Below are positions 43,024 through 46,578 of a stretch of DNA of 64,000 bases, piece after piece. Both the position numbers and the translations under genes were made by a program. The notes under the pieces were generated by a model. It had not been told where the DNA came from, ran no database searches, and saw only the letters and a list, made by a program, of their open reading frames with translations. The stretch spans positions 558,001-622,000 of the forward strand of contig NZ_SBKO01000001.1 in NCBI RefSeq assembly GCF_004122165.1, written 5' to 3'. Within the stretch, counting starts at the first letter, position 1. Each line of letters opens with the position of its first letter. The stretch is from Flavobacterium amnicola (GTDB lineage Bacteria > Bacteroidota > Bacteroidia > Flavobacteriales > Flavobacteriaceae).

Positions 43024-43335
43024 TTATAAAAATATAGAAACAAACGGTTTTTTGATGCTTTTTAAGTTATGATACGTCATCATCAGCCAAAGAAAAAACA
43101 AACCTAAAAGATTAAAAAAAAGTGCAAAACCCACCTTTTCATTATTTATGGTTAAGTACGTATTTTCGAAAGAAAAATTGTTGATTTGAAAGGATGGTTC
43201 GCTGTATTTTGGAAAATATACGATAGCAAGATAAAATACATTTCCAACAAATACCATAAAAATAGCCAAAGCAAGGCTAGAAACTAGCAGTTTTATTTTT
43301 TCTGATTGCTCTATTTTTGGCGCATTGGTTACCAT
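43024..43335 (-). CDS. small membrane protein of unknown function
   Basis: A 103-aa protein with two hydrophobic helices (LLVSSLALAIFMVFVGNVFYLAIVYF, about 16-41, and FALFFNLLGLFFLWLMMTY, about 70-88) around a short soluble loop. I know no family. It is convergent with the AlbA_2 gene, 15 bases away, and reads in the same direction as the two-component genes upstream. No ribosome site or promoter is distinctive, so it remains a moderately supported gene. Confidence 0.6.
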   Translation of the reverse strand: MVTNAPKIEQSEKIKLLVSSLALAIFMVFVGNVFYLAIVYFPKYSEPSFQINNFSFENTYLTINNEKVGFALFFNLLGLFFLWLMMTYHNLKSIKKPFVSIFL

Positions 43336-43431
43336 GATTTCAAGGTTTTAATTCTTTTGGAAATTATACCTTAAAGTTCTCATTTTTTGCAAAAAAACAG
43401 CTGTGGTTTTTCCGTACTTTTTGTTAAATTT

Positions 43432-44083: not shown

Positions 44084-46111
44084 TTATACGGGTATTGTCA
44101 TTTTTGTTGATGTTCCTTTTCCAATAACAGATTCTAAACTGAAGTTTCCGTTTATGGCTTTAATTCTGGATTGCATGTTTTTCAAACCAATCCCTTCCCT
44201 CATTTTGGAGGTATCGAAACCTTGTCCATTATCCTTTATTTCAATTACAATTTTGTCTTCTAGTTTTACAATTTTCAAAATTACTTCGCTGGCTAAGGCA
44301 TACTTGTAAATGTTTTGAAGTGATTCTTGAAAAATTCGATACAAATGAATCTTGATAGTGTCATTTATGGTTTTCCAATTAATATTTTCATCGATATCAA
44401 TTTTGCAGTCAAGGTTGGTTGTGTTTTTATATTCTTCGAATAAATTACGAACAATCTCTTGAAAGCTATCTTTTTCTAGTAATGCATTTTTGTTTAAATC
44501 GTGTGATATGTTTCTGATTTCTTTTTCAATATCCTGAATTCCATCGATATGTTTCAAGCACTTTTGTATGGTCTCTTCGTCTTGTTTTTTGCTTAAAATG
44601 AACAAATTCAATCGAGTACTTGTAAGTTTACTCATCACCCCATCATGCAACTCTTGCGAAATTCGTTTCTTTTCACCCCGACGTGCTTCATTTATCACAC
44701 TTTGTTGTTTTAGCATTAACTGATAGATTTCTTCATTGGTTTCTTGTTGCTTGCGTTCAAACTGTAATTCTTTGTTTTTGGCATGTTGCATTCTGGTGAT
44801 GTATAATAATCCTAGAATTATAAATACGATGACACTGCAAATCAGTATAAACCATCGTTGGGAAGATATCTCTTCCTTTTCAGCCTCTATGGTGTTTTTT
44901 TCGTTTAAAATTTCATCCGTTTCAAATTCAATTCGGGCAAATTTATTACGGGTTGCTCTTTCTACGTTTTGAAGACTATCATTAAGCGCAATGTATTTTT
45001 TGGTGTATTCCAAACTTTTTTTGGGCGCTATTTTTGACAATAATTCCAACGCACTCAGTTCGTCTTCAAAAATTTTATTTTCATGTGCTCTTTTTTTGGC
45101 GTTTAAGCAGTATTTTAAGGCAGTAAGCGAATCTTTTTTCTCCAAATAATACTTGGCTAAATTGATGTTACTTGAGACTAACCCTGGGACATTTTGCAAG
45201 CTATCTCTTATTTTTAGTGCTTTTTTTAAATAATAGAGTGAATTTGAGTTCCCTAATTTAAAGTTACTGTAACCAATATTATTCATTAAATTGGCATACA
45301 AGAGTGTTTTAGTCGTTTCAAAACGTAATGCTTTATTGAAATAATCAATCGCCTGATTGTCATTTTCTTGTTTTTGGTAAATTTTACCTATGTAATTGTA
45401 TGTTTGGGCTTTTAATGAGGCAAACTGAGGGTCATTTTTCATTTTATCCGTTAATTCAAACGCTTTTTCAAAATACTCCAATGCTTGATCGTTTTGATTC
45501 AAGCCCTCTAAGGAAAGTCCCAAAGTGATATAACAATCGTATATAAGTCTAGTATCATTTCCTTTAATTGCCGATTTTAAGATTTTTATTACCGCTGTTT
45601 CTGATCCCGAAAAATCTTTTTCATAAAATAGAATATTGGCTTTATACAATCCTATTCTACTGGTATTCACACTATCTTTTTCATAGTGCAAGTACATTTT
45701 TTCTGCTTTGGTAAAGTAGTAATAGGCACTATCATTTTTGAAATTGATATAGTAGTAATTCCCAATAAAGTTTAAACTTTTGGAAATACTCAAGGTATCA
45801 TTTTTTTCAATTGCCATTGCATTAACTTCTTTGCAGATGGCAAAATATTGATCATATTTTTCAAGATTATAAAAACCTCCCGCTAATTGAAAATAAAAAT
45901 TTCTTTTTAGCGAATCGTTTTCTTTCTTTTGAAGAATATAATGTGCTCTTTCAATATTTTTTAATCGCTCTTTTTTGGAAAGGGTAGGATTATACGCTTT
46001 CGAAAAAAGAGATTCAACATAATCATTTGAATATACTCGCTTGTCCTCTTTCTGTTCTTTACAAGAAAAGAAAAACAAAAAAAACATCGCAAAATAAAAT
46101 ATGTTTTTCAC
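44084..46111 (-). CDS. TPR-containing sensor histidine kinase with lipoprotein-like N-terminus
   Basis: A 675-aa membrane sensor kinase of the NarL/DesK (HisKA_3) type. The N-terminus (FYFAMFFLFFFSC, Cys17) has a lipobox-like end. Then come about 330 residues of TPR repeats (about 70-345) that should be periplasmic, a coiled region, a single membrane helix (420-438), and the kinase core. The phospho-acceptor is His489 in RISQELHDGVMSK. The N box is in FQESLQNIYKYA and the G box in IEIKDNGQGFD. The cognate regulator gene follows directly. The signal sensed by the TPR part is unknown, but a peptide or cell-wall ligand is possible. Confidence 0.9.
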   Translation of the reverse strand: MKNIFYFAMFFLFFFSCKEQKEDKRVYSNDYVESLFSKAYNPTLSKKERLKNIERAHYILQKKENDSLKRNFYFQLAGGFYNLEKYDQYFAICKEVNAMAIEKNDTLSISKSLNFIGNYYYINFKNDSAYYYFTKAEKMYLHYEKDSVNTSRIGLYKANILFYEKDFSGSETAVIKILKSAIKGNDTRLIYDCYITLGLSLEGLNQNDQALEYFEKAFELTDKMKNDPQFASLKAQTYNYIGKIYQKQENDNQAIDYFNKALRFETTKTLLYANLMNNIGYSNFKLGNSNSLYYLKKALKIRDSLQNVPGLVSSNINLAKYYLEKKDSLTALKYCLNAKKRAHENKIFEDELSALELLSKIAPKKSLEYTKKYIALNDSLQNVERATRNKFARIEFETDEILNEKNTIEAEKEEISSQRWFILICSVIVFIILGLLYITRMQHAKNKELQFERKQQETNEEIYQLMLKQQSVINEARRGEKKRISQELHDGVMSKLTSTRLNLFILSKKQDEETIQKCLKHIDGIQDIEKEIRNISHDLNKNALLEKDSFQEIVRNLFEEYKNTTNLDCKIDIDENINWKTINDTIKIHLYRIFQESLQNIYKYALASEVILKIVKLEDKIVIEIKDNGQGFDTSKMREGIGLKNMQSRIKAINGNFSLESVIGKGTSTKMTIPV

Positions 46112-46198: not shown

Positions 46199-46375
46199 CT
46201 ACCTCGGTATTTGCGCAGGGATTGGCGGATCAATATCTGTTTCTGTCTGTTGAAAATGTTCTGATGATTCGGTCTCTAGTGCTTGTTGATCATATTTTCT
46301 CATTTGTTCGATGGCGCAAGATGCTGGTGATCCAAGTAATGCTAAAAAACTGATAGTATAAAAAAATGTTTTCAT
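46199..46375 (-). CDS. 58-residue secreted peptide or lipoprotein
   Basis: An open frame of 58 codons directly upstream of the kinase gene, same strand. It has a textbook signal sequence (KTFFYTISFLALLGSPASC, Cys20) and then a mature part of 38-39 residues, acidic and Gln-rich (QALETESSEHFQQTETDIDPPIPAQIPR at the end, split here from residue 31). Cys20 could be a lipidation site, though Pro at -3 is unusual. Other frames in this 470-base gap are shorter and lack such an organised pattern. I know no family with certainty. Position suggests a link with the periplasmic TPR sensor (inference). Confidence 0.6.
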   Translation of the reverse strand: MKTFFYTISFLALLGSPASCAIEQMRKYDQQALETESSEHFQQTETDIDPPIPAQIPR

Positions 46376-46578
46376 AATTTTGGGTTTTTATAAGTTATTG
46401 TTTTTGAAAAATTTTATCATTTTTAGTGAATTTTATTACAAGTATTTCTTATAATTTTTTCAAAATTATAACTGTTAATTTGATAAATTTTACGGTTTTT
46501 CCGCATATTTTGTTAAATGTTTGCGCTTATCCATAACTGATATTTATAAATTTTTAGTATCTCAATTGCATTTTATTT
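46376..46578. other. intergenic region between divergent small peptide and phosphatase genes
   Basis: About 200 very AT-rich bases that must carry two divergent promoters. No exact -7 consensus, palindrome or RNA gene was recognised. Confidence 0.5.

Follow-up and report, generated by a model that had tools for sequence, protein, structure and literature searches.

A small signal-peptide gene paired with a TPR sensor histidine kinase points to peptide signalling in Flavobacteriaceae

The 64,000-nucleotide stretch of the Flavobacterium amnicola genome analyzed here (hereafter the window) carries on its minus strand a 58-codon gene for a peptide with a signal sequence, placed just before the gene for a TPR sensor histidine kinase. 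This small gene is real. The reading considered probable, at roughly 0.72, is that the locus encodes an autoinducing secreted-peptide two-component system of Flavobacteriaceae in which the peptide is the cognate signalling ligand of the kinase, with feedback. The computational evidence comprises a gene family that is paired with the kinase, selection acting on the repeat units or C terminus of the precursors, co-diversification of peptide and kinase, an operator-like box, and the fold class of the sensor.

The peptide gene is followed, after 87 bp, by the GTG start of the kinase gene and then by the genes for a response regulator and a small membrane protein (Table 1). The initial annotation had described an ATG-to-stop frame just upstream of the kinase, encoding a signal sequence and an acidic tail rich in Gln and Pro, and this description is confirmed: the frame opens with MKTFFYTISFLALLGSPASC, and the 38-residue tail that follows contains 6 Gln and 4 Pro and has a net charge of about -5 by hand count. 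The lipoprotein form that was also suggested is uncertain for this precursor: although a Cys closes its signal sequence, the motif there, P-A-S-C, departs from the canonical lipobox. Relatives carry SPATC (L107) and SPFTC (L088) at the matching site. Comparison of the window peptide with Pfam and NCBIfam returned no match, and nothing exceeded a curated cut-off when it and eight other precursors were compared with family libraries; a PG1828 lipoprotein model raised by one precursor was rejected, as its score was 23.7 bits against the 50 required and it covered only the signal and spacer.

Table 1. Features of the peptide-kinase locus and of two box-associated genes outside the window.
Feature	Position	Strand	Remarks
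Operator-like box TTTAACAAAATATGCGGAAAAACCGTA, 27 bp, upstream of peptide gene	46491..46517	-	Conserved in 5 relatives
Promoter -7-like element TATAATTTTG	46461..46470	-	20 bp after box
Peptide precursor gene	46199..46375	-	ATG-to-TAG frame, 58 codons; a short spacer joins the signal sequence to a Pro-rich C terminus
Signal sequence (residues 1-20, the last being Cys20)	46316..46375	-	PASC may be a lipobox, though a non-canonical one
Putative active peptide at the C terminus, DIDPPIPAQIPR, cut site approximate	46202..46237	-	From tails of relatives and purifying selection
Sensor histidine kinase, 675 aa	44084..46111	-	Pfam TPR, HisKA_3, HATPase_c; signal/lipobox-like N terminus; one TM segment by eye
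TPR sensor domain, residues 18-405	44897..46060	-	AlphaFold2 mean pLDDT 90.1, pTM 0.84
Response regulator, 216 aa	43432..44082	-	Pfam Response_reg; receiver and divergent LuxR-like C terminus
Second box copy, after regulator	43402..43428	-	Differs from the 27-mer at 3 positions
Small membrane protein gene, 103 aa, behind second box, putative target	43024..43335	-	Open frame
M4 thermolysin-like protease, T9SS sorting tail	L216:431-3877	-	Outside window
530-aa lipoprotein, HESVH motif, no Pfam match	L216:11398-12990	+	Outside window; one-mismatch box 68 bp upstream

A tblastn-type search with the 58 residues, as the initial annotation had proposed, found no credible match outside the genome of origin among 100 relatives, the best outside match (E 0.004) lying in a different family and covering the signal region. 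Such a direct search is misleading here, because the family is hypervariable and its members are missed. Comparison of the precursors next to the nearest kinases, which share 45-57% identity with that of the window, is more informative: the window tail IDPPIPAQIPR has counterparts in IDPPTPPTKP, IDPIVMPKKP, IDPPKGGTKP, IDPPVRPKP, and IDPPTVPVIKK, and the tail IDPPKLPTPPIKT, found among the relatives, is also similar to it.

The pairing was quantified with a fixed filter that accepts an ATG frame of 40-130 aa having a basic start and a hydrophobic stretch, located on the same strand and ending no more than 400 bp upstream of the gene in question. Examined kinases were the best matches of each search rather than a random draw, 60 regions being fetched from among the matches listed in the genus search; collapsing duplicates reduced 168 kinases to 158, and removal of two with short upstream DNA left 156 unique TPR/HisKA_3 kinases. 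A filter-positive signal-peptide ORF lies upstream of 142 of these 156, and upstream of all 31 kinases (31/31) of a second set obtained in later order- and phylum-wide searches. The corresponding background rate for other genes and shuffled sequences is about 2%, with positives at 4 of 226 other long ORFs of the fetched loci and in 29 of 1560 (520-bp segments) or 32 of 1560 (full 900 bp) dinucleotide shuffles of the upstream DNA. The frame is thus more than a chance occurrence, and a conserved frame beside the same kinase, whose absence from related genomes the initial annotation had named as grounds for refutation, is the rule among the relatives. By eye, five of the 14 kinases missed by the filter (L056, L115 at 4030, L125, L139, and L143) do have a peptide frame, one that falls outside its limits. 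Nine of the 156 kinases have no credible peptide, seven of these nine being in kinase clusters, and one filter-positive frame (L073) resembles a two-TM protein.

The pairing is specific to the subfamily of the window kinase, since only 4 of 30 other TPR histidine kinases, taken across the phylum from matches to the FimS model, pass the filter and none of the four has a convincing peptide. For the same reason the FimS-model kinases were rejected as wider members of the group; none of the sampled kinases exceeds the cut-off of that model, FimS itself lying outside the sample. Within the genus of the window, 256 of 298 genomes have a kinase match at E ≤ 1e-80. Relatives from the named collection belong to Algibacter, Tamlana, Flavivirga, and other Flavobacteriaceae, and all subfamily matches at E ≤ 1e-40 fall in the window's own family with the exception of a single genome (G076), which comes from a different family of that order. 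A search of nine genomes with one precursor of the repeat class gave four matches, of which three adjoin a kinase and the fourth (G148) is weak. In several loci (L115, L138, L141, L146, and L149) two to four paralogous kinases are clustered in a genome and only some have peptides of their own; the peptide-less kinases of these clusters may be orphan receptors.

The precursors are short, with a median length of 62.5 aa over 194 frames, a set that includes a few spurious extras (for example L073 and second frames in L138, L185, and L198), and they fall into recognizable classes. Pro-rich lipoprotein-like precursors, including that of the window, form one class; others end in DPIIIPKKD or alike, with four or five tandem genes in some loci, or in DKDKTKG, or are of the Algibacter type CTKQDLNEDD...TGG. 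A further, large class (FTSFTTPE...) is Cys-less and bears tandem units such as LVGGASAGGNKKVD, with the same kinase pairing. Exact internal repeats of at least 7 aa occur in 44 of the 194 frames, 37 of which have three or more copies, and the window precursor has a single unit; Lys or Arg is present within the last six residues of 162. A Cys occurs in the signal region of 111 frames, and in 107 of these at least two Asp or Glu residues follow within 7 residues, resembling the surface lipoprotein export signal (LES) described in PMC5080379, in which the lipidated Cys is followed directly by a polar residue and then by acidic ones. The sequence CAIEQMRK after the Cys of the window precursor fits this motif poorly.

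Codon substitution patterns single out the end of the precursor. For four within-genome sets of tandem copies, pN/pS of the C-terminal 12 residues is 0.12, 0.04, 0.04, and 0.26, compared with 0.63-0.73 for the signal and 0.23-0.51 for the middle in the same sets. Repeat tracts, counted by period because selecting units by exact amino-acid pattern would favor identity, behave similarly: in eight of nine tracts the copies differ by 18-56 synonymous and no nonsynonymous pairwise codon differences (56 in L148), the ninth (L129) having 19 synonymous and 7 nonsynonymous, and L072 being excluded for its irregular spacing. On the strength of the low values in tandem copies and the synonymous-only repeat differences, the C terminus or repeat unit is the conserved functional part of the precursor. 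In the window's own, more diverged clade the contrast is weaker, C-terminal pN/pS being 0.42 (5 sequences); in the set L091/L054/L095/L092 it is 0.80. Weaker contrast in the window clade would follow if every kinase were matched by a variant of its own, and it cautions against over-reading the window member.

Peptide similarity, measured over the last 14 residues and taking the best pair where a locus has several peptides, correlates with similarity of the kinase sensor (Spearman 0.44, n = 173; 0.50, n = 139 without the Algibacter set), the maximum of 500 permutations being 0.085. The catalytic half of the kinase is as well correlated with the peptide as the sensor is (0.48 in all, 0.475 without the Algibacter set), so that peptide and kinase co-diversify in a manner that is not specific to a binding surface, and sensor-specific co-evolution is not demonstrated. 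In 11 genomes with two kinases, each having its own peptide, 18 of 22 comparisons (Wilcoxon p = 9e-5) place the peptide closer to that of the nearest foreign kinase than to its sibling; two comparisons are drawn from each genome and hence are not independent. This result argues for matched, separate channels.

The model of the sensor (388 residues) consists of helical hairpins over about 330 residues followed by a long linker helix, bearing out the earlier estimate of some 330 residues of TPR in the kinase. Judging from the layout of the kinase, the TPR domain is predicted to lie outside the cytoplasm and to face the periplasm. Its best structural match is the TPR domain of the eukaryotic protein LGN, solved with bound peptides (Z 28-31), and the pheromone receptors Rap and NprR come next (Z 23-26), level with the non-pheromone TPR proteins APPBP2, which binds degrons, and O-GlcNAc transferase. 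Because TPR superhelices resemble one another, the modeled fold is taken as consistent with peptide binding and no more. A lipobox-like Cys is present in the first 60 residues of 132 of 189 kinases, and the 15 exceptions among those listed are all Algibacter-type; the kinase itself may therefore be lipid-anchored at its sensor end.

A strict motif filter places the regulator gene directly downstream of the kinase gene in at least 143 of 189 cases. Over residues 3-201 the window regulator aligns with NarL/MctR-type models, at scores below their cut-offs. Upstream of the peptide gene a 27-bp element, TTTAACAAAATRTRCGGAAAAACCGTA, is conserved with 0-1 mismatches in G221, G203, G130, and G212 and with 3 in G209, while the flanks have diverged. 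The box thus precedes the peptide gene in the genome of origin and five related genomes, and it recurs after the regulator in five of these six: the genome of origin, G221, G203, G130, and G212 (loci L172-L175, 2-4 mismatches). The element TATAATTTTG follows with equal spacing in L172, L174, and L175 and nearly so in L173; the Bacteroidetes promoter consensus is TAnnTTTG. At the peptide genes of the next three relatives (L176-L178) no copy of the box turned up with 6 mismatches or fewer, and an ACGGAAA-type element is present there instead. The suggestion that the peptide might be a target of the regulator gains support from this conserved operator-like box at the peptide promoter, and we infer that the regulator acts there.

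The 24-bp core of the box has 5 sites at no more than 3 mismatches in the genome of origin, against none for the reversed-pattern control, and 3-10 sites in each of five relatives, where the control has 0 or 1. Only this longer 24-27-mer is specific: the simple palindrome CGGTTTTTCCG was rejected as a mark of the regulon, its occurrence in the 64-kb window being at chance and its 11-mer having 4 genome sites versus 8 for the reversed control. The membrane protein behind the second box has no family over cut-off in Pfam or NCBIfam, and frames of 103-134 aa occupy the matching place in L172-L175. Further boxes in the genome of origin lie about 250-280 bp upstream of the M4 metalloprotease gene, upstream of the lipoprotein gene of Table 1, and at a terminator-ended region without a credible ORF. 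Control of the protease in general was rejected, because the box is found at the M4 gene in the genome of origin and G221 only (2/6) and is absent at its best homologues in G203, G130, G212, and G209. Several box matches of the relatives have no convincing target or are chance-like.

RNA-like elements accompany some of these loci. In the Algibacter set (L002-L035, e.g., L003:6604 and L010:6843) such an element is conserved in 32 of 34 loci, with a core AATCCCTCA...GATAATAGC followed by a terminator-like stem in which the changes between loci are paired; it stands after the regulator in the Algibacter loci whose genes were read. A box of the CGG-N5-CCG type lies 56-60 bp before the RNA core in 24 Algibacter loci, a count made without shuffle control. 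Scanning of eight loci, including the Algibacter-type L003 and L010, against Rfam at gathering scores gave no match. The arrangement suggests a regulator-driven small RNA in the Algibacter clade. In one relative (L248, G209:C1:649000-656000) the box recurs together with a promoter-like element and a hairpin resembling a terminator in eight tandem units spaced about 314 bp apart, all with poor reading frames, possibly an array of small-RNA-like transcripts. Between peptide and kinase genes a hairpin with a T tract occurs in 88 of 143 loci versus 211 of 715 mononucleotide shuffles, an enrichment of about twofold; in the window no terminator is evident at this place (z -1.4), so the enrichment is only suggestive of one.

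Taken as a signalling system, the locus would operate as follows. The precursor would cross the inner membrane by means of its signal sequence, and in the lipoprotein-like precursors of many relatives the acidic stretch after the Cys would favor display at the cell surface. A C-terminal peptide of about 10-14 residues, in the window around DIDPPIPAQIPR, would be freed or exposed, whereas repeat-bearing relatives would free several peptide units per precursor; neither a protease for the processing nor an exporter was found. The peptide, presumably released from the cell, would bind the extracytoplasmic TPR sensor, in its concave groove, and switch the HisKA_3 kinase, the response probably being activation. 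The regulator would then act at the TTTAACAAAATRTRCGGAAAAACCGTA box and drive the operon of peptide, kinase, and regulator (autoinduction), as well as the gene of the small membrane protein and a handful of other sites. The proposal of the initial annotation that the peptide is the ligand of the sensor is supported by the repeat units, the selection on the C terminus, the co-diversification, and a TPR fold of the peptide-binding type, binding itself being a prediction.

The pairing, the box, and the selection data would also fit with a peptide that acts as a negative-feedback accessory, being under the control of the system and holding the sensor off without passing between cells, in the manner of CpxP and the Phr peptides, which bind a sensor to keep it off. 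This is judged rather unlikely, in that multi-unit precursors and tandem copies with an identical C terminus are, in our judgement, more typical of a released signal than of an inhibitor acting in stoichiometric amounts. A different role for a small lipoprotein would be that of an envelope sentinel, as for NlpE and RcsF, which report on lipoprotein sorting or surface export: when retained in the periplasm, its tail would bind the TPR sensor. The 111 of 194 frames with a Cys in the signal region, 107 of them acidic after it like the export signal outlined in PMC5080379, and the expectation, inferred from the layout, that the sensor faces the periplasm are in keeping with such a role. It would, however, have no need of a hypervariable, kinase-matched C terminus, and the large repeat class shows the same pairing without any Cys, so that this reading is held to be improbable.

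That the product is secreted, fast-evolving, multi-copy, and encoded behind a regulator-type box would also suit an antimicrobial or other effector that is regulated by the kinase and is not its ligand. Co-variation with the sensor is not required of effectors, though, and no transporter or immunity gene was recognized by eye in the 45-residue protein starts of nine loci; an effector is accordingly considered very improbable. The negative outcome of the direct homology search is what a chance frame or a leader ORF lacking any peptide function would give, and such an origin is close to negligible in view of the protein-level selection in relatives and the 91-100% pairing.

Signalling by peptides is a familiar trait of Gram-positive bacteria. 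In the RRNPP systems of Firmicutes (Rap-Phr, NprR-NprX) the gene of an exported propeptide likewise directly adjoins that of a TPR receptor with a superhelical fold. RRNPP receptors are, however, intracellular proteins of 250-500 aa, according to PMC10075063, whereas the receptor here has 675 aa, a signal-like N terminus, a TM segment, and a TPR part that is predicted to lie outside the cytoplasm and is fused to a HisKA_3 kinase; the host is moreover a Gram-negative member of the Flavobacteriaceae, and the gene order is peptide and then receptor. On account of its receptor, the window system is not an RRNPP system. Peptide-pheromone two-component systems of the AgrC/ComD type similarly cluster a peptide gene with a histidine kinase and a regulator, with likely autoinduction in common. 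AgrC and ComD sense with multi-pass membrane domains, however, and to our knowledge systems of this type have no TPR sensor, lipoprotein precursor, or polyprotein repeats.

The layout of a periplasmic TPR sensor kinase is shared with FimS/FimR of Porphyromonas gingivalis, although the FimS model NF053520 scores the window kinase at 53.5 bits against a cut-off of 600. What FimS senses is given as unknown in PMC11053733, which suggests that the ligand is a polypeptide. The presence of several identical units in one secreted precursor, as in 44 of 194 frames here, is reminiscent of fungal pheromone precursors of the alpha-factor type. These have multi-copy peptide units and are unrelated proteins, and the window member has a single unit. 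No description of such a peptide-kinase system for Bacteroidota was found in the literature covered, namely open-licence PMC texts.

The occurrence of a peptide gene beside most related kinases points to an undescribed way of peptide signalling in these bacteria. If the proposed reading is true, a very common subfamily of sensor kinases would have a signal that can be read from the genome, and the active peptide of each species would be predictable from the C terminus or repeat unit and directly testable with synthetic peptides. The pairing would also suggest what type of ligand other TPR sensor kinases without a known signal may have. There is an even chance, in our estimation, that the Flavobacteriaceae possess a large undescribed class of peptide-pheromone quorum sensing between cells, which would combine an extracytoplasmic TPR kinase with a hypervariable secreted precursor, often a repeat polyprotein or small gene array, and would have orthogonal channels within one genome, operator-driven autoinduction, and small-RNA-like outputs. 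Should this prove true, such a class would constitute a mainstream peptide language for Bacteroidota.
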